This document shows, one piece after another, positions 791-26,586 of a stretch of DNA of 36,186 nucleotides. The position numbers and the translations under genes were made by a program. How positions within the stretch are numbered: the stretch's first letter is position 1; each line of letters opens with the position of its first letter. Under the pieces are notes generated by a model. That model was not told where the DNA came from. It saw only the letters and a list, made by a program, of their open reading frames with translations, and searched no databases. The stretch comes from Sphingomonadales bacterium 63-6 (GTDB taxonomy: Bacteria; Pseudomonadota; Alphaproteobacteria; Sphingomonadales; Sphingomonadaceae): assembly GCA_001898545.1 (NCBI GenBank), contig MKUB01000196.1, positions 1 through 36,186 on the forward strand, read 5' to 3'.

Positions 791-1453
791 ATGAAATGGC
801 TCCTGCCCCTTGCCCTGGCCCTGGTGCCCACCCCTGCGCTCGCCCAGCTAATCACGGGCAAGGCCTACGCGATCGATGGCGACACGCTCGACATGGACGG
901 CTTCCGCATCCGCCTGCACGGCGTGGACGCGCCGGAGGCCGAGCAGACCTGCCTGCGCGAAGGGAGCGATTGGGCATGCGGCCAGGCATCCAAGGCCGCA
1001 CTGGCCGCCCTGGTCGAAGGGCGGCCAGTGGAATGCGAACAGAAGGGACGTGATAATTACGGCCGGATGGTCGCCGTGTGCCGCGTTGGCGGCATCGATA
1101 TGGCGGACGAACAGGCCAGGCTCGGCATGGTGGTCGCCCTGCCCGACTTCTCACTGGCCTATGTCGATAGCGCTGCCCTGGCGCGCACGAACCGCCTGGG
1201 CATCTGGGGCTCGCAGTTCCAGATGCCGGCGGATTATCGCGCCGCGCACCCGGAGACATACCGTAAAGCCGCGCCGCCCTCGCAAGCCGTCAGAAAAGCC
1301 GCTCCTGCCTGGCCCAGAGTTTTTTATCGCAACTGCAACGAGGCGCGCGCAGCGGGTGCCGCACCGCTCCATCGCAGCCAGCCCGGCTATCGTTCGGAAA
1401 TGGATGGCGATAATGACGGCATCGCCTGTGAGCCCTATCGCGGTGGGCGCTAA
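791..1453 (+). CDS. Secreted thermonuclease-family (SNase-like) protein with C-terminal excalibur calcium-binding domain
   Basis: ORF 755..1453. ATG at 791 gives signal peptide MKWLLPLALALVPTPALA, then ITGKAYAIDGDTLDMDGFRIRLHGVDAPE (SNase), then YRNCNEARAAG...DGDNDGIACE (excalibur). Confidence 0.85.
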   Translation: MKWLLPLALALVPTPALAQLITGKAYAIDGDTLDMDGFRIRLHGVDAPEAEQTCLREGSDWACGQASKAALAALVEGRPVECEQKGRDNYGRMVAVCRVGGIDMADEQARLGMVVALPDFSLAYVDSAALARTNRLGIWGSQFQMPADYRAAHPETYRKAAPPSQAVRKAAPAWPRVFYRNCNEARAAGAAPLHRSQPGYRSEMDGDNDGIACEPYRGGR

Positions 1454-1632
1454 GAATCATGCGCTTCCGCGCCGCACCTACTGCACACCCGTGCATTTTT
1501 AAAAACGAAAATGTCGAGCATCGAGGTGCGCTGCAGCTCCACCATCATATAGAATAATGAGACCAATGCATAATTGGTATAAAAATAAAAATACTATGTA
1601 TTTTTGAAATTCTCACAAAATATAAATTTCTC

Positions 1633-2031
1633 TTAATTATTTATTTGTTCGTAATACTTTCTCAGTCTTTCCTTTAATGCGGAAAGAGAAAGCTCCCAAA
1701 GATCCACAGCTTGTGAAAATGTATTTCGCTCATCCAAATCAGAATTTATCCAACAATCCAGTTCTATAATTAGATCTTTGTCATCATCCATATATATCTT
1801 AGAAAAACGAGTTTCAAAATTGAATTCATTTGCAAATTTTAGCAAATCAATTTCTTCTCCATCTACGCTATTCAAAAGACATCTAAATTGAATATTTTCA
1901 TCATAAGATTGAACTATAAAACGCAGCCCAGACGCTGCAGATCCAACCGTTTCTTCGTCAAGGATCTCAGCCTTATACCCAAGATCATGGAGCGCTTTGT
2001 ATACCGCTTTTGCAGTGTCTTCTTTTGTCAT
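1633..2031 (-). CDS. YbjN-like domain hypothetical protein
   Basis: 132-aa ORF in an AT-rich region; acidic small protein resembling YbjN/T3SS-chaperone-like fold. Start overlaps the stop of the upstream gene (2028..2915). Confidence 0.5.
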   Translation of the reverse strand: MTKEDTAKAVYKALHDLGYKAEILDEETVGSAASGLRFIVQSYDENIQFRCLLNSVDGEEIDLLKFANEFNFETRFSKIYMDDDKDLIIELDCWINSDLDERNTFSQAVDLWELSLSALKERLRKYYEQINN

Positions 2032-2915
2032 TCTACCACTCTCAACCTGGATCGTTCAGTATTCGATCTGCGACCATAATTGCGCGACCTCTTCCCTTGA
2101 AGTATTGCCGCCTTATTCGGAATAAGAGCAGGGTCCATGCTGTCATGGATCGTCGTTTCTGCCATGATCAGATTTCGAGCACCCTCATTGGTGAATGAGC
2201 TTGCCTGATCCGAATCCGAGGATAGATCGCCCTTGGCTACACGGTGTCCGCGCCCCAACGACGAACTCATAGGAAACCTAAACTCAGCGGACGCCCCCTT
2301 TAAGCCAGCCACTCCTGGATGATGGACGGAAGTCAAGAAATCTTCATGCTTATCGATCGGCATCTTATTGGTTGCATGCAAGTTTGTTCGCCATAGCTCG
2401 CGATCGGACGCAGCAACTCGATGCAAGACATTCCGCCCAATACGACGACTTGTGATCTTGCGCTCGGCACGCAGCTGGCTGACAGCGCGCGCGACCGTCT
2501 CGATGCGTCGCTCCGCTTCCTTTGCAAGATCACTTGTCGACCAGGGACGACAATTGCCACTAGAAAGGATCTGCATAATCCTTTCCTTGACATCTCGCGC
2601 CGTATCCCGAGGAAGAGGCGCTTGCTCCGAGGCGATAGCGGCAGTTTCAGCGTCAGCTGATAGCTTGGCAGCCATGGTTTGAGCACTTCTCTCAAGCGCC
2701 ACTCTGTGGGTGAGCCTCAAGCGCTCATAGCTTTGGGCGAGAACATCCCGCGCAGCTGCAATATCCTCTTCGCCCCGTCCAGAACTGATCATTTCAAGCA
2801 AGCGCCGTTTGGCAGCGATGCGGACGCGATCCACTTCGTCCCATCGCTCCGCGTCAATTGCAGAATCCATACGCGCCCTATAAGCATCTATCGCCCATAC
2901 TCGGCTCACATACAC
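2028..2915 (-). CDS. Hypothetical protein with central winged-helix-like segment
   Basis: 295-aa ORF; segment VKERIMQILSSGNCRPWSTSDLAKEAERRIETVARAVSQLRAERKITSRRIGRNVLH looks like a wHTH. Confidence 0.5.
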   Translation of the reverse strand: MYVSRVWAIDAYRARMDSAIDAERWDEVDRVRIAAKRRLLEMISSGRGEEDIAAARDVLAQSYERLRLTHRVALERSAQTMAAKLSADAETAAIASEQAPLPRDTARDVKERIMQILSSGNCRPWSTSDLAKEAERRIETVARAVSQLRAERKITSRRIGRNVLHRVAASDRELWRTNLHATNKMPIDKHEDFLTSVHHPGVAGLKGASAEFRFPMSSSLGRGHRVAKGDLSSDSDQASSFTNEGARNLIMAETTIHDSMDPALIPNKAAILQGKRSRNYGRRSNTERSRLRVVE

Positions 2916-2948
2916 CTCCGCCTTGCCTTTACCAATGCCATCTAGTCA

Positions 2949-2968
2949 GTTGACATCAATTGATCAAC
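2949..2968. promoter_or_regulatory. Candidate operator between divergent cargo genes
   Basis: GTTGACATCAATTGATCAAC: outer GTTGA/TCAAC inverted repeat with inner palindrome ATCAATTGAT, between starts at 2915(-) and 2993(+). Confidence 0.4.
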
Positions 2969-2992
2969 ATTTCCTAACATGGTACCCGACCG

Positions 2993-4642
2993 ATGCTGAA
3001 TGATCCAGATGCAGTCCGAGTTGCCGCGGCCTTGAGAGACTGCTTTGCGACGATCGCCCGTTGCGAGCAGGATTTGCACGCGGCTCGCCGTCAGAAATGT
3101 ATGGGCAACGCGGACGAAGTGGGCGATTTGGTAAACGCTCTCAAGACAGACTGCGCAAAGATCGACGATCAATTAGAAGAAGCTACAGACATCGACGCCA
3201 TACTGTCAGATGCACCAACAATGACCGTAGATGTACTTCTTTCGACATTAGGCGAACTTCCCACACCGGCATCTGCATATCCAACCAACCCAGATGAAAT
3301 TCCGAAATGGATTTCTTCCTTCATAGTGAAGGCGCAATTGCTAGATGGCTGGCTTGAGCCCGCAAACAATACCGACATGACCTTGTCTAAGGAGCAGGCT
3401 GAATTCCGTGATATTTTTGATACCAATGGTTATTTACAACTAACCGATGGCGCATTGCTCATCCGTCGACGAATTACGCGATGGCAAGGTGATGATGACG
3501 AAGTAGAAACTTTTGGATTATTCGCTCGATATTTGCGCGAAGTAACTTATATTCCTGCCCTTCTCGACTGCGATGACCCTGACATTTTAAAGTATACCGG
3601 CAATCCAATATCATCCGGCTTCTACCTTTGGAATAGCGATACAATTCTATCTAACCCACTTCCAACAGACCCGAAGATAGCAGTAGCTCCACTTGCCGAA
3701 CGCGGTAGCGATGTTGCATTTGTGCCAAGCGCCTGCCGGAGCAAATATGCATTGAATCTTAATTACGATGAAAGCCGCTTCGCAGCCGCGTTGGCTCGCG
3801 CCCTCAACGAGAATGTAAACATTCTGCTCATTCCTGAAATGGCCTTGCCAGAAGGCGATCCGTCAGACTTTGCTGATCGCATGCGCAAGCTCTTTCTTGA
3901 GGTCCGTGCTACACACTACAACCAGAGCGGAGAAGTCGGGCAACTCTGTTTCGTGATAGCTGGCGTCCTTGGCGGTGCTGGTCCGGATGGCCACCATAGA
4001 AACTACGCTGTAGCATTTGATGCTTACGGCGAGCAGCCCGAAGGCTTCCAACAGCTCAAACTCTCACATTGGAATATCACTCGAAGCGAGCAGGATCGCT
4101 TTGGGATTACGCATTATCAGGCAAAAAACGGAGATCTAGCTGACCCGATCGTTGAGAACTCTTTGCCAGCAGAATGCCTTTCAATTCTCGAAATTCCGGG
4201 CGTAGGCCGGACCGCCACATTGATCTGTGCGGATATGTCGCAGAATAATCCTGGCGATTGGTTAAGCCTTAACGCCGTGCTCGATTGGATTTACGCCCCA
4301 ATCATGGATAAATCGACCTGCTGGGAAATTTCTGACCAACAGAACACCCCGCGACCTTGGATTGTAAACCGCTCTTATCGGGCAGCGCTGCTAACACGAA
4401 CGGTCGTCATCACCACTAACAGCATGTCACTAAGCCGCTGGGTTAATGAAGCAAACAAACTGTCAAAAAGCACATGGCCTCAATATTCCGAAGTCGGAAT
4501 CGGCTTAGCAATCAACGGACGTGTTGACGTGCCCACGCAATGCCACGTTTCGACTCCCATTGACGAGACGAATGTACTCATGGCTTTTGCACCGATGAAT
4601 CAATGGCCGCCCTTTCCTTTACCCCCAAATAATCAAAAATGA
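2993..4642 (+). CDS. Nitrilase-superfamily-like (carbon-nitrogen hydrolase fold) protein with novel N-terminal region
   Basis: 549 aa; ordered candidate triad E282 (NILLIPEMALPEG), K356 (FQQLKLSHWN), C412 (ATLICADMSQNN). Confidence 0.65.
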   Translation: MLNDPDAVRVAAALRDCFATIARCEQDLHAARRQKCMGNADEVGDLVNALKTDCAKIDDQLEEATDIDAILSDAPTMTVDVLLSTLGELPTPASAYPTNPDEIPKWISSFIVKAQLLDGWLEPANNTDMTLSKEQAEFRDIFDTNGYLQLTDGALLIRRRITRWQGDDDEVETFGLFARYLREVTYIPALLDCDDPDILKYTGNPISSGFYLWNSDTILSNPLPTDPKIAVAPLAERGSDVAFVPSACRSKYALNLNYDESRFAAALARALNENVNILLIPEMALPEGDPSDFADRMRKLFLEVRATHYNQSGEVGQLCFVIAGVLGGAGPDGHHRNYAVAFDAYGEQPEGFQQLKLSHWNITRSEQDRFGITHYQAKNGDLADPIVENSLPAECLSILEIPGVGRTATLICADMSQNNPGDWLSLNAVLDWIYAPIMDKSTCWEISDQQNTPRPWIVNRSYRAALLTRTVVITTNSMSLSRWVNEANKLSKSTWPQYSEVGIGLAINGRVDVPTQCHVSTPIDETNVLMAFAPMNQWPPFPLPPNNQK

Positions 4643-5024
4643 CGAACTCAACCTTAGCTAGATCAACTCGACAATATTACATTGATCACTCAATTTTTAG
4701 CTAGCTCGCCTGAACATAATTTGTTCCCGACAGCCACCTGAAAGCAGACCGTCATTCAGTTCTTGCCCCGTTATTCTGCGGGTCTTTCAATCGCAGCTGA
4801 GGGAAGGCTTCCAGAAACACGGCCAAAGCCACGATCGGGATCAGGCGGCGCCAGCGCCACCCTGATCGGATATTGCTGGATACGGGTTTTCCAATCGGGG
4901 ACCATTCGCCTGACCATAGGCGGAACATAATTGGAACATCCGATTCGGCCAACATGGTTCCGCACCTGACCCCCACCGCGTGGGAATGCTGGATTGATCC
5001 CGAGTTGCTGGCTACAATGTGCCC

Positions 5025-5856: not shown

Positions 5857-6105
5857 ATGAAAGAGATCGTCTATACCCGCAACGCTCTCAGGGCCCTGCG
5901 CAGGATGCCCGCCAATGTTGCGGCGCGTATCCGGGCCAAGGTCCAGCAATATGCCGCCGATCCTGCTTCTCTGGCCAATAATGTGACCGAGTTGAAGGGG
6001 CGTGACGGCATCCGGCTGCGAGTGGGTGACTGGCGTGTCATCATGGAGGATGGCATCGTTCTGGCGGTTCTCGAAATTGGCCCGCGCGGCGGGATTTATG
6101 AATAA
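5857..6105 (+). CDS. RelE/ParE-superfamily toxin (HigB-like order)
   Basis: 82 aa, MKEIVYTRNALRALRRMPANVAARIRAKVQQYA...RLRVGDWRVIMEDGIVLAVLEIGPRGGIYE; followed by an HTH gene. Confidence 0.85.
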   Translation: MKEIVYTRNALRALRRMPANVAARIRAKVQQYAADPASLANNVTELKGRDGIRLRVGDWRVIMEDGIVLAVLEIGPRGGIYE

Positions 6106-6127
6106 GCCCCTCAATTAAAGGAGGAAC

Positions 6128-6472
6128 ATGATGGGCGAAATGGTGACTATCAGCCGGGCGGAATATGACCGGCTAATCGAAACGGCGGAGAATTTTGCGG
6201 ATCTTCGCGCCTATGATCGCGCCAAGGCCGCCCTGGCCGCTGGCGATGATGAACTCATTCCGGAAGATGCCGTGCGCCGCATTCTGGATGGCGAAAGCCC
6301 CCTGCGCGTTTTCCGCGAATTGCGCGGGTTTACGCAGGCCCAGCTGGGCGAACTCGCAGGCGTGAACCGGGTGCAGATCGCGGACATCGAAGCGGGCCGC
6401 AAATCCGGATCGATTGACACGGTAAGAAAGCTGGCCAGTGCGCTGAATGTGGCGATTGACGATCTGGTCTAG
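6128..6472 (+). CDS. XRE-family HTH antitoxin
   Basis: 114 aa; LRVFRELRGFTQAQLGELAGVNRVQIADIEAGRKSGSIDTVRKLASALNVAIDDLV HTH; 22 bp downstream of the toxin. Confidence 0.85.
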   Translation: MMGEMVTISRAEYDRLIETAENFADLRAYDRAKAALAAGDDELIPEDAVRRILDGESPLRVFRELRGFTQAQLGELAGVNRVQIADIEAGRKSGSIDTVRKLASALNVAIDDLV

Positions 6473-13731: not shown

Positions 13732-14121
13732 ATGGCAGTCGAAATTACAATCTCTGCTGAACAGTTAACCGGTTTCAGTAAGCCTGCGCAGGAGGCGATT
13801 GTGAAAGCCGGATCGGAGTTCGTCCAGGCGGTGATCGATGAGGCCAATCGACTGGAATCGAGTCACAATGCTGATGGCGGGCCGATTGAAATAACTCGCG
13901 GAATGGTAAGCGACGCAGTTGTTATACAGCGCCGAGCACTGAAACGAAAACAAAGCGAACCAAGAACAAAAATATTTAGAGCCGCTTCATCAATTTTCTC
14001 AATTATACTCGGATTTATGTACGACACCGAATCACTACAAAATCCAATTTTCCTTGCATTTTTTATGCTATTCGGAGCAATAACAATACTTCTCGTAACT
14101 TATTCCACTATCAAGGATTAA
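13732..14121 (+). CDS. Membrane-anchored protein with histone-fold-like N-terminus
   Basis: 129 aa; AQEAIVKAGSEFVQAVIDEANRLE...GGPIEITRGMVSDAVVIQRR then two hydrophobic segments. Confidence 0.45.
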   Translation: MAVEITISAEQLTGFSKPAQEAIVKAGSEFVQAVIDEANRLESSHNADGGPIEITRGMVSDAVVIQRRALKRKQSEPRTKIFRAASSIFSIILGFMYDTESLQNPIFLAFFMLFGAITILLVTYSTIKD

Positions 14122-14124
14122 CCT

Positions 14125-14787
14125 GTGGAAGAAAATCAACAAGACCCGATAGTTCAGAGATTGTTCTTTGAACGGAATCAGGATTTAAAGTTACGACAGC
14201 AGAAGTGGATGCAGATAGACATTGCTCTTCGGACCTATTCGTATCTTGGCCTCGTAATCAGCCTGATATCAGCGGGTGCATTTGCGTTCTCGTTTCTGAA
14301 CGTAAAATTGACCAACAACCAGCTGGTCGCCTTAATTGTGGCAGGAGTTGGACTGCTGCTCTCAATTCTATCTTTTATGCTCTTGAGAATTCGGAGCCAG
14401 CTACAAAAGAGAATTTTCGATTTCGAAATCGGCACCACAACACCTTATTATCTGATGGATGAAACATCTCTTTCCGCGGAAGTCGTGATGAAGTGGGCAG
14501 AATTTGAAAGAATTGCCCGTCAGATAACGAGTAAAGACGGAAAGCCTTACGGTCAGAAATCCATTAAAATAATCATTAAGGATGTTTCAGAATTAGGCAT
14601 AATCAGCCCCAACGACATTCAATATTTGTCCATACTTCTTGAAATAAGAAATTCAATAGTACATGGAGAAGGGTTGCGCGATTTCTACGCTGCATCCCAT
14701 TCTTTAGAAAAGCTTGATATAATCATCAGGGAAATCAAGAATGAATTACAAGCTCCCCCGGACAGAAACTTAATACATAACAGCTGA
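14125..14787 (+). CDS. Two-TM protein with HEPN-like C-terminal domain
   Basis: 220 aa (GTG start); two TM helices; EIRNSIVHGEG contains R175-N-xxx-H180, the HEPN Rx4-6H motif. Confidence 0.55.
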   Translation: MEENQQDPIVQRLFFERNQDLKLRQQKWMQIDIALRTYSYLGLVISLISAGAFAFSFLNVKLTNNQLVALIVAGVGLLLSILSFMLLRIRSQLQKRIFDFEIGTTTPYYLMDETSLSAEVVMKWAEFERIARQITSKDGKPYGQKSIKIIIKDVSELGIISPNDIQYLSILLEIRNSIVHGEGLRDFYAASHSLEKLDIIIREIKNELQAPPDRNLIHNS

Positions 14788-22623: not shown

Positions 22624-22714
22624 AGTTGATACTTAAGCGGCTCACATTCTGGAAATTCGTTGACTTTCCCTTGTCGACTATTTGGGTTCTAGCAGAACGA
22701 TTATCGGGGACTAC

Positions 22715-23929
22715 ATGTCAAAAATCGATTTTGGCGAACATGGCGGCGGACTTCGACATTTCGATGTCGTAGAAGAAGCGCTTGATTACATCTCACAGCG
22801 CATCGTGGAATTTCGGCCTGACGACACATTTGCAGAGTCCGAAACATGGAGGAAGCCGATCGTACATCGATGGCTTGAGATTCAGGAAGAAATTATTAGG
22901 CGGCGCGATGCTGATCTAATGGCCGAGCGAGAGCCAGATTTCGAGTTAAATGGCTTTCTAGCGTTGAAGGCAGCTATTCGGAGAGATTCAAAGGCAGGCG
23001 AAGCCCTGTTCGCGATTAACGCTGAATTTGGCTCAAGTGCTGCCCGTAGCGCAGCATGGTTCGCCACACGACTTCCCGACGAACAAATCTCCATGCCTAA
23101 CACTCGCGATGGGATCATCGGTGTTGTCGCATTCAGCGAAGCAATGGTTGGATCAGGCGATGCTGCTCACAGAGCTAGTCAGATCGCATACAAAAATCTC
23201 GTCAAATCCATACAGAATGACGTCGAAGAGCATCGACGGCAGCTGTTGGATTATTGTGAAAACCACGAAGCGAAAGTAGGCGACCTCAACATTCGCTTGG
23301 AACAAGAGATGCGTCAGTGGAACGAATGGCGTACCGTCACAGGAGGAGAGGTTCAAGCAGACCGCCAGCAATGGTCTGAAGATTGGAATAGCGCTTACAA
23401 CGCCTTCACCGAACAATTAAGCATCGAGGCGCCAGTTGCACTATGGAACTTGCGCGCATTAGAACACACAAGGAATGCTAGGCGCTTACGCCTTTCGATC
23501 GCTAGCTTTTGCATTATCGGTGCATTTTTGCTTATTGGGTTAATTCCGATTTCGTTGAAATCGGTGCATCACCTCATGGGAGACCCGAATGCCTCGGCTG
23601 GGCAATTTAGTCCGCATGAATTAATATTCTCGGCTTCGTTATTACTCTTCTATCTCACCATGTTTTTCTGGCTGATGCGGATAGTAGTGCGCATGTATAT
23701 GACCGAGCACCATCTTGGTATTGATGCAAAATCCCGTGCAGCGATGGCTGAGACATATCTCTCCCTGACAAAGCAACGTGTAGCCACCGATCAGGATCGG
23801 GCAATTGTGCTCGCGACGCTTTTCCGTCCGGTCGTCGACGGAATTGTGAAAGATGACGGTCTACCCGCAATTACACCAGCAGCTATCTTGTCAGGATTGG
23901 CTGGAGGAAAAGCTCATGCAGGCAATTAA
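22715..23929 (+). CDS. Membrane protein of unknown function, resembling DUF6161
   Basis: 404-405 aa; two TM helices (SIASFCIIGAFLLIGLIPISL; ELIFSASLLLFYLTMFFWLM) then LGIDAKSRAAMAETYLSLTKQ...RAIVLATLFRPVVDGIVKDDG. Family recalled, not searched. Confidence 0.5.
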   Translation: MSKIDFGEHGGGLRHFDVVEEALDYISQRIVEFRPDDTFAESETWRKPIVHRWLEIQEEIIRRRDADLMAEREPDFELNGFLALKAAIRRDSKAGEALFAINAEFGSSAARSAAWFATRLPDEQISMPNTRDGIIGVVAFSEAMVGSGDAAHRASQIAYKNLVKSIQNDVEEHRRQLLDYCENHEAKVGDLNIRLEQEMRQWNEWRTVTGGEVQADRQQWSEDWNSAYNAFTEQLSIEAPVALWNLRALEHTRNARRLRLSIASFCIIGAFLLIGLIPISLKSVHHLMGDPNASAGQFSPHELIFSASLLLFYLTMFFWLMRIVVRMYMTEHHLGIDAKSRAAMAETYLSLTKQRVATDQDRAIVLATLFRPVVDGIVKDDGLPAITPAAILSGLAGGKAHAGN

Positions 23930-23936
23930 CTACGCA

Positions 23937-24737
23937 CTATCTGCCCAGCTTGAGGATCCGCTCCGCTCGTTGAATTCGGTATTTGGCGCCTTCCCAATTG
24001 CCGTGAAAACGAAATGCATCACCATCGGAGAAGGCAAAGCGCCAAGGTTCAAATACCAGAGGGTGTAGTACGCCCTGCTGTCCTTCCAGGCGCACGTACC
24101 ATTCCCCGTGAACGTTGAAGACTGTGCCATAAACACCGTTCAGAACGCTCATGCCCTCTGGCGCTGGAAGACCCTTGAGTAGCTGGCTTGCCGCAGGTCG
24201 GCTTGCAAATAGTTTGTCGGCCAAATTCTCAGCGCTGAAAGTGCCGTTCTGATTATCTTTAACAGTTCTGGCAGGCGCGTCGATCGCGGCCGCTATTTTT
24301 TCCGAAATCTTCCGATCGATGTTTACGGTGTTTCCATCACCATTGATCACGATATTAACTTGTCGCGCCTGATCGCGTGCAATAGGTTCATTGAGAGCCT
24401 TGATGGTCTTACGATCTTGAGCTGTGATTTTTCCCTTTTTGAAGCCTTGAACAATAGAAATCACATCAGCCAAGAACCCAACATATGCACCCAACTCTTT
24501 GATATATAGACCGGCGGCAGCTGCGCTCAAAGTGCCGGCAACAGCAAATTCAATCCACCAACTGCCGGTTCCCGAAGCGTGAACCGTCAACTTCAGGTGA
24601 TTTCGTCGCCTTTCGAAGCGTTGGAAATTAGTCCCGACTTCCGCAATCATGGCACCGAGGAGTTGGGCATCTATCACCCCATCGGTTTCGTATTTGATGC
24701 GAAGGAACGGAATGTCCCTATCGGCAATCACCTCCAC
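23937..24737 (-). CDS. Hypothetical protein in the lysogeny operon
   Basis: 266 aa with AGG AGG-type SD; contains a hydrophobic segment and QVNIVINGDGNTVNID. Confidence 0.5.
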   Translation of the reverse strand: MEVIADRDIPFLRIKYETDGVIDAQLLGAMIAEVGTNFQRFERRRNHLKLTVHASGTGSWWIEFAVAGTLSAAAAGLYIKELGAYVGFLADVISIVQGFKKGKITAQDRKTIKALNEPIARDQARQVNIVINGDGNTVNIDRKISEKIAAAIDAPARTVKDNQNGTFSAENLADKLFASRPAASQLLKGLPAPEGMSVLNGVYGTVFNVHGEWYVRLEGQQGVLHPLVFEPWRFAFSDGDAFRFHGNWEGAKYRIQRAERILKLGR

Positions 24738-24842
24738 CCCACACCTCCTGTTTTTTTATTGGATGGCGCCGCAGCGTAACTAAGAATCAACAACGCTCAC
24801 CTTGGTTCATGCTGGCCGCAAGGCCAACCATTTGCCTTTGGA

Positions 24843-25895
24843 TTAGCCTTCAAGCTCGGCAATCCGCTCCAACAGCGCCTTTTCGAACTTATAGATGTCA
24901 ATCGCGCCAGCCACTGAATGGCGCGTCTCATCTTTGCCGGTGAACAGCCCCAGATAGCGGACGTTCTCGCTGTTGAAGTGAAGCCGGGCGAGCGGCTTGC
25001 GATTATTGTCGTCCAGCAGGACCGCACAGTAAGACTTTGCATCGCGGATCACGACGCGCGCCGGATCGATCACACGGGCCGCAATTGCCCGCACGATGTT
25101 GTAACCGGCCAGTTCTTCTTCCGTGGTCACAATCTCGTCAGCGCCAGCCACCTCAACGGGTTCCTCCTCATGGGGATTGGAGGCGCTCAGCGCTGAATTC
25201 AGCCGGTCGTTGACCTTGTCACGGATCAGGCCGCTGATCGAACGGGTGATGTGTTCTTTGAAGGTTTCCCGCACCTGCGGAGTGAGATTGCCTTCATGGA
25301 TGCGGCCAGCGATCAAGCGCACGAACTGATCCGAAGGGCTGGCAAATTCCTTTTCCAGTTCCGCATCGACAAGCGATTGCAGCTTCAGGCTGCCAGCCTC
25401 GCGAATGATCGCATCGACATCGAAGGATTGCTTGGCAAACTTCTCCAGCGTCCGAAGGTCTGTCTTGCTGTATCGCTCAAGCGTAAACTCGAAGAACGGC
25501 ACTTCGTCCATGCGGTTCGCAGCGTCGATGTCAGAGTAGAATTTGTAGATAACGCCATTGGTCAGCACCGCGACGCGCACTTCCTGAATGGCGGAAAAAT
25601 ACCGGAAAAGCTGGGATGCGTGCTTCAGGTTAAGCTCGCCGTTGGCTGGCTTGCATTCAACCAGCATGCGAATGGCATCGCCATCCTTGATGGCGTAATC
25701 GACCTTTTCGCCCTTCTTCGTCCCCACATCGCAGGTGAATTCTGGCACCACCTCGCCGGGGTTGAACACATTGTAACCCAGGGCTTGCAGGAAAGGCATA
25801 ACAAGAGCGTTCTTCGCCGCTTCCTCTGTCGCCAGAACTTCCCGGTGCGCACGCATCGTCCGCGCGACTTCGTCAATCTTCGATCCCAAATCCAT
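24843..25895 (-). CDS. Orphan type I restriction HsdR N-terminal-like nuclease domain protein
   Basis: ATG at 25895 (ORF to 25919); VDYAIKDGDAIRMLVECKPAN gives D...ExK; ALGYNVFNPGEVVPEFTCDVGTKKGEKVDYAI typical of HsdR_N-like proteins. Confidence 0.7.
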   Translation of the reverse strand: MDLGSKIDEVARTMRAHREVLATEEAAKNALVMPFLQALGYNVFNPGEVVPEFTCDVGTKKGEKVDYAIKDGDAIRMLVECKPANGELNLKHASQLFRYFSAIQEVRVAVLTNGVIYKFYSDIDAANRMDEVPFFEFTLERYSKTDLRTLEKFAKQSFDVDAIIREAGSLKLQSLVDAELEKEFASPSDQFVRLIAGRIHEGNLTPQVRETFKEHITRSISGLIRDKVNDRLNSALSASNPHEEEPVEVAGADEIVTTEEELAGYNIVRAIAARVIDPARVVIRDAKSYCAVLLDDNNRKPLARLHFNSENVRYLGLFTGKDETRHSVAGAIDIYKFEKALLERIAELEG

Positions 25896-25915
25896 AGTGC
25901 CCCCCATTCTCGTCG

Positions 25916-26572
25916 TCACATCTTCCGAACGATCCCCACTACGCGGCCGAGGATGTGCAGTTCGCCATCGTGTGCCACTTCCGGCGGGACCGCCGGGTTA
26001 TCGGATAGAATCTTCACGCCATCCGGAGTCGGCCTCAGTCGCTTGACCATGCCGCTGCCGCAATACGCAACAGCCCATATCTTGTCGGCCAGCGTCATGC
26101 TTTGCTGCGATGTATCGATCAGCAGCAAGTCACTGTCGTGGATGGTGGGCATCATGCTGTCGCCTGAGCCCTGGGCGAAATAGACCGCTTCTGGATTGGC
26201 GCTGGTATATTGGCGTAGCCAGCCCCGGCTGAAGTGGCGGACCGTTTTGGTTACCGGGACTTCGAAGGCTGTCGAGCCCATGCCGAAGCGGAGATCGATT
26301 TCTTGGACTTCGACCAGGTCGAGTTGGTCGGCCAGCACAGTTGCCGATGGCGCAGGCAGTGCCCCGACAGAAGGATCGTCCGTTTCGCCTGAAAGGTATT
26401 CGGCTGTAGTGCCTAGCGCGCGCGCAATCTTGTGAAGATGCGACGATCCGGAACTGATCCCCGACTCTAATTTGCCGATTGTCGCCTGTGACAGGCCAAC
26501 CTGCTTCGCAAGCTGAGTCTGAGAAAGACCCAGCTTGTTCCGCAATTCCGCGATTCTCTCACCCGTGCGCAT
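25916..26572 (-). CDS. Phage repressor, HTH + S24 (LexA/CI-like) peptidase
   Basis: MRTGERIAELRNKLGLSQTQLAKQVGLSQATIGKLESGIS HTH; GSGDSMMPTIHDSDLLLID and MVKRLRP give a Ser/Lys dyad. Confidence 0.9.
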   Translation of the reverse strand: MRTGERIAELRNKLGLSQTQLAKQVGLSQATIGKLESGISSGSSHLHKIARALGTTAEYLSGETDDPSVGALPAPSATVLADQLDLVEVQEIDLRFGMGSTAFEVPVTKTVRHFSRGWLRQYTSANPEAVYFAQGSGDSMMPTIHDSDLLLIDTSQQSMTLADKIWAVAYCGSGMVKRLRPTPDGVKILSDNPAVPPEVAHDGELHILGRVVGIVRKM

Positions 26573-26586
26573 AGCAACACACACTT

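Follow-up and report, generated by a model that had tools for sequence, protein, structure and literature searches.

A nitrilase-superfamily gene cassette in a P2-like prophage of Sphingomonadales bacterium 63-6, a candidate mobile immunity module

Gene content and layout of the cassette

The window analysed here (the whole stretch of 36,186 nucleotides from contig MKUB01000196.1 of Sphingomonadales bacterium 63-6) represents a P2-like prophage: its tail completion, baseplate, tape measure, tail, primase and integrase proteins gave strong PHROGs matches, and a tRNA-Ser gene adjoins the integrase gene. Between gpS/SNase and the toxin-antitoxin/lysis region of this prophage lies a cassette of three genes (Table 1). 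The coordinates given in the initial annotation for all three orfs, including the stop-start overlap, were correct, as was the description of a lower-GC block: the cassette is AT-richer than its surroundings, with a GC fraction of 0.33-0.54 over positions 1501-4500 versus 0.65 in the left flank. By gene, the GC fraction is 0.34 (YbjN-like), 0.54 (wHTH) and 0.50 (nitrilase), and that of the whole window is 0.60. No operator-like exact inverted repeat with arms of at least 6 nt is present in the divergent intergenic region.

Table 1. Features of the cassette, in window coordinates.
Feature	Coordinates	Strand	Remarks
YbjN-like gene	1633-2031	-	132 aa; 4-nt overlap with wHTH partner gene
wHTH partner gene	2028-2915	-	295 aa; GTG start, 4-nt stop-start overlap
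Divergent intergenic region	2916-2992		77 nt; presumably contains both promoters
Nitrilase-superfamily gene	2993-4642	+	549 aa; divergent from the other two genes
Whole cassette (discrete replaceable slot)	1453-4731		Alignable to the G1157 sister prophage on both sides but not in the interior

The nitrilase-superfamily protein

The largest protein of the cassette consists of a helical N-terminal region (residues ~1-220) and a catalytic domain (~225-545). By itself it has no match in Pfam, and it matches the PADLOC RT_UG5-nitrilase profile weakly (E 6e-4), in the nitrilase part only (profile positions 686-734). Family members of Azospirillum and G836 pass the cut-off of 23.2 for PF00795 (CN_hydrolase; P0005, 28.8 bits, and L036, 29.8 bits), and the family profile aligns with the ordinary nitrilases of the host (hhalign E 2.4e-10) as well as with mouse Nit2. 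Since relatives pass CN_hydrolase and the profile aligns to ordinary nitrilases, the assignment is settled: the protein is a member of the nitrilase (CN_hydrolase) superfamily, with a predicted alpha-beta-beta-alpha fold. Structure prediction of 2993-4642 followed by a Foldseek search, a check that the initial annotation had proposed, returned the nitrilase fold. The AF2 model, built from a shallow set of 5 sequences, is of low confidence overall (mean pLDDT 57) and acceptable in the catalytic half (residues ~221-549 mostly at 60-90); its best match is Nit2 (4hg3, 1.1e-10), and the best 50 PDB matches are all nitrilase-superfamily enzymes.

Four residues (E282, K356, E388 and C412) are invariant in 17 of 17 aligned family members. 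Three of them, in the order E282/K356/C412, had already been named as the triad of the superfamily. Alignment with the host nitrilases matches E, K and C, and alignment with mouse Nit2 matches E and K; the second glutamate, E388, is out of register in both. This fourth residue, an invariant acid, fits the Glu-Lys-Glu-Cys tetrad that the superfamily has. The unrecognised N-terminal part noted previously is indeed present and is helical, but its length is ~220 residues rather than 280, the catalytic module starting at ~225.

Other nitrilase-like proteins encountered in the searches were kept apart from this family. A 272-aa protein of G051 was set aside as an ordinary nitrilase. Proteins of 571-587 aa in G1040 (L033 7728-9443) and G450 (L026 5939-7702) form a separate branch that keeps the four residues, has different N-terminal parts and lacks a recognised module; the G1040 copy lies amid transposase-like genes and a KAP-like NTPase fragment.

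The partner proteins

The wHTH partner has a helical N-terminal domain (residues 6-118), a winged helix (~108-165) and a C-terminal tail modelled with low confidence. The earlier description of its gene as wHTH-like therefore applies to the middle of the protein, which stands behind a conserved helical domain. Homology between the partners of Sphingomonadaceae and those of Azospirillum and G427 extends over ~150 aa and includes both the helical and the winged parts (hhalign E 2.7e-11). A structure search with the partner gave no significant match (best E 0.17). The possibility of a CARF sensor was rejected because the weak CARF3/Csa3 matches sit on the winged helix (108-171) and not on the CARF part.

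When 191 genomes were searched with the partner profile, matches were found in G427 (itself in the profile), in G433 (outside the profile, E 4e-12) and in G527 (7.8e-7, wHTH part only). A nitrilase relative, found in few genomes, is also present in G433, but it is broken by a stop and lies on another contig than the partner-like gene. These matches are no more than suggestive. G433 carries two helical-wHTH partner-like copies (L091 3809-4555 and L092 2083-2832), neither of them on the contig of the broken nitrilase gene.

The 132-aa protein matches PF10722 (YbjN; E 3.3e-8, 34.2 bits, cut-off 22), in agreement with the initial annotation of it as YbjN-like, and from family membership it is predicted to be chaperone-like in fold. 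PF10722 is also matched above the cut-off by the corresponding proteins of L010 and L005; the third-gene protein of L011 has no PF10722 match.

A replaceable slot in the prophage

A prophage of the same genus (G1157) is 84% identical to window positions 825-1452 and 83% identical to 4732-4834, with unrelated sequence in place of the intervening 1453-4731. In agreement with the earlier proposal, the cassette is prophage cargo. In G1157 (L074) the slot contains a SRAP/YedK-like gene (identified by eye), and further cargo lies between gpS and SNase, namely genes for an antirepressor-like protein and a small membrane protein. A related prophage in G1188, with a gpS 72% identical, encodes a SIR2 protein (PDC-S25, 2e-72) directly 3′ of gpS and then a PLD-like protein; the SIR2 gene and the divergent PLD-like gene (L075 1002-3824, low GC) make up a second candidate defence pair beside the same phage gene. 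Other related prophages have lysis or baseplate genes directly 3′ of gpS. A complete Gabija system (GajA and GajB) was found in the tail-fibre region of another related P2-like prophage (G1269 L079 940-4589).

The position of the cassette amid late tail and lysis genes might indicate a morphogenetic or regulatory role that benefits the phage in its own life cycle. Such a role is very improbable: the late operon runs opposite to two of the three genes, the block has no relative in eight related prophage loci, and its relatives are found outside prophages. Scans and a tblastn search of phage and viral collections gave no relative.

Conservation of the three-gene module

Sphingobium, Qipengyuania and Sandarakinorhabdus, which belong to the same family as the host (Sphingomonadaceae sensu GTDB), each carry these three genes with order and orientation unchanged, at ~30% identity to those of the window and with unrelated chromosomal flanks, and therefore the shared layout is not inherited synteny. 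At each of these three loci, the nitrilase gene is followed divergently by the helical-wHTH gene and then by the YbjN-like gene at a distance of -14 to +9 nt. The YbjN-like gene is linked in all four testable loci of Sphingomonadaceae; the Sphingomonas corticis locus was left out of this test because its contig ends. Relatives of the nitrilase are rare and patchily distributed, occurring in four genomes of the order, that of the window among them, out of 401 searched, and a search at the level of the class found five more in 387 genomes, three of them distant.

The pair of nitrilase and wHTH genes persists through rearrangement. In Azospirillum plasmids the wHTH gene overlaps the nitrilase gene on its 3′ side, in G427 it is downstream, and among the relatives altogether divergent, downstream and upstream arrangements are found; the pair is retained in nearly every lineage whose contig permits testing. 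Linkage in all three arrangements is more than a simple divergent repressor would predict, and argues, from gene order, that the two proteins are partners, physically or functionally, over and above divergent repression. The proposal that the nitrilase is a stand-alone effector with a dedicated regulator is not supported, because the linkage is conserved and the nitrilase belongs to a module.

The genomic surroundings of the relatives are of two kinds, so that the expected association with mobile elements and defence genes holds for some and fails for others. The Qipengyuania copy has an integrase gene and tRNA-Leu on its upstream side and a DISARM-like block (DUF262, NERD-helicase, DrmB and DrmA genes) on its downstream side, and the copy on a plasmid of Rhizobium CC1099 adjoins genes for SIR2, nucleoside deoxyribosyltransferase and P-loop NTPase proteins; together with the prophage slot of the window, the Qipengyuania island and the Rhizobium plasmids account for the association. 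The copies of Sphingobium, Sandarakinorhabdus and G427 are amid housekeeping genes, and those of Azospirillum are also counted there, the pair on two Azospirillum plasmids being arrayed like an operon behind genes for a dehydrogenase and a cyclase-like protein. The Rhizobium CC1099 plasmid island (L038) includes FRG-domain, SIR2, nucleoside 2-deoxyribosyltransferase and QatA-like NTPase genes beside a wHTH-ATPase-nitrilase operon.

The Azospirillum copies downstream of metabolic genes, the intact active-site residues and the mostly metabolic character of the superfamily would fit a metabolic fitness gene, coding for an amidase or nitrilase that is regulated locally. This is quite unlikely for a family that is far from the five ordinary CN_hydrolases of the host and patchily distributed, with the window copy in a prophage slot. 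There is no conserved transporter or pathway neighbour, and the neighbours that are conserved are the wHTH protein and the YbjN-like protein or a KGGVGR ATPase. A plain metabolic operon was rejected, since a pathway neighbour recurs in Azospirillum alone.

Distant relatives with a KGGVGR ATPase

In Rhizobium CC1099, one operon encodes a wHTH protein, a repeat-bearing KGGVGR ParA-like ATPase and the nitrilase; in Rhizobium strain X9 the ATPase gene appears to be split by an IS21-type element. Similarity of the Rhizobium wHTH protein to the partner profile is confined to the winged part (E 3.3e-5). A distant branch of nitrilases, related to the window family with a profile E of 3e-17, is present in 13 of the 48 genomes searched from another proteobacterial class, in operons that combine the nitrilase with a KGGVGR ATPase and a helical-wHTH partner, and the ATPase is encoded in nine of ten further loci of that class. 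The partners in operons of the KGGVGR type have no significant sequence similarity to the window partner; architecture alone is common to them. The ATPases of the Rhizobium and G871/G836 operons match PADLOC PDC-M28B and, above the cut-off, NCBIfam AAA_KGGVGR, and the G836 nitrilase matches PADLOC CARF-nitrilase (CARF_m7--CARF_nitrilase, E 2.6e-8). The window cassette has no KGGVGR ATPase, the YbjN-like gene being in third place.

These ATPases bear on the possibility of prophage addiction, in which the nitrilase would be a toxin, and the wHTH protein (with or without the YbjN-like protein) would be its antitoxin, repress its own gene and so keep the prophage from being lost. The compact divergent layout with overlapping genes and a DNA-binding partner, the retention of the pair across lineages and the presence of relatives on plasmids are all compatible with addiction. 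In relatives, however, the added ATPase with repeats points to sensing more than to plain addiction. The effector is also a large enzyme, chromosomal housekeeping genes surround several of the copies, and a ParE/HTH pair is already nearby at 5857-6472. Addiction is accordingly considered unlikely.

Comparison with known systems

No description of a nitrilase with a wHTH, YbjN or KGGVGR protein was found in the literature searched, most of it outside subscription journals. The closest analogies are with systems in which one component is shared. The nitrilase domain of DRT1 is an abortive-infection effector that acts as an oligomer, and ATP, GTP and NAD+ have been suggested as candidate substrates (PMC13275509). 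Like DRT1 and the class 3 UG/Abi reverse transcriptases (UG1, UG5), the cassette encodes a nitrilase-fold domain with the catalytic tetrad and an additional helical domain. Unlike DRT1 and UG5, it lacks a reverse transcriptase, and control would lie with separate wHTH and YbjN-like proteins, or in relatives with a KGGVGR ATPase. No reverse transcriptase domain was detected in the three cassette proteins by Pfam, PADLOC, PHROGs or NCBIfam, and none was recognised in the neighbourhoods read; therefore, the cassette is not a DRT.

CARF-nitrilase resembles the cassette in having the nitrilase domain of a candidate defence effector, and its profile matches the G836 relative, but the window proteins showed no CARF domain and the cassette has no CRISPR genes. 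Without a CARF domain, the protein is not a CARF-nitrilase. The uncharacterised PADLOC candidate PDC-M28, a KGGVGR ParA-like ATPase, is similar to the ATPases of the distant relatives and differs from the window cassette, which has none. TY-chaperones, which have been unified with T3SS chaperones and YbjN, are found in predicted ADP-ribose immune systems (PMC9503650); such conflict systems have the YbjN family in common with the cassette, but their chemistry is that of ADP-ribose, and PMC9503650 does not mention nitrilases. In P2-like prophage hotspots, a small variable slot between conserved phage genes carries defence genes (PMC9122126), and the cassette occupies a slot of this type. The E. 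coli P2-like hotspot is adjacent to the cos site, in contrast to the slot of the cassette, which extends from gpS/SNase to the lysis region and is in another host group.

Predicted function in immunity

From genomic context, we infer a function in defence. The cassette recurs at unrelated sites and its relatives are twice found among anti-virus genes, and therefore it is probably an undescribed relative of cell-disabling immune systems. The best explanation, with a probability of roughly 0.6, is that the cassette is a mobile three-gene immunity module with a nitrilase-family amidohydrolase as its effector. By analogy, it is most likely an abortive-infection module in which the nitrilase is held by its partners, akin to DRT1 without the reverse transcriptase. 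Several results count against the immunity reading: the copies amid housekeeping or metabolic genes, the failure to find relatives in phage and viral collections, the resemblance of the KGGVGR-type partners in architecture alone, and the shallow structure model.

In an uninfected cell, the helical/wHTH partner and the chaperone-like YbjN-like protein would keep the nitrilase from acting or sense some event induced by phage; nucleic acid might be read by the wHTH, which might also control expression. Upon infection by a competing phage, the nitrilase would be freed or would oligomerise, and would then hydrolyse an essential small molecule bearing an amide or amine, arresting the cell before phage are produced. 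In relatives, the switch may be run by the KGGVGR ATPase with its repeat domains. What the analysis shows directly are the genes, their linkage, the modelled fold, the active-site residues and the mobility of the cassette; the inhibition, trigger, substrate and cell arrest are taken from the analogy with DRT1, and the detailed order of these steps is doubtful.

A broader proposal, tentative at somewhat less than even odds, is that the cassette represents a so far undescribed superfamily of immune modules, spread over Alphaproteobacteria and at least one further class of proteobacteria. Each module would have a nitrilase effector under the control of a helical-wHTH partner and of an exchangeable third protein, either a YbjN-like chaperone or a KGGVGR ATPase, and the amidase reaction, whether destroying a metabolite or making a toxin, would be new to immunity. 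If this is true, nitrilases would be a more general class of effectors in bacterial immunity that can be paired with several control devices. A small module that has a catalytic domain of the DRT1 type and is free of reverse transcriptase could be a simple system in which to find the substrate of defence nitrilases, and the cassette supplies concrete marker genes for finding further modules.

Other features of the window

The ParE/HTH pair mentioned above consists of a gene for a ParE-like toxin and, after it, an HTH gene, and the ParE-like protein is identical in the G1157 sister prophage. A low-GC pair of genes between the tail fibre and baseplate genes (13732-14787; 129 and 220 aa) may be a cargo insert; the 220-aa protein has predicted membrane segments, judged by eye. 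A low-GC block of four genes is located at 22682-26584, within which the gene at 24843-25919, of HsdR N-terminal type by eye, overlaps the gene of an XRE-like regulator (25916-26584).
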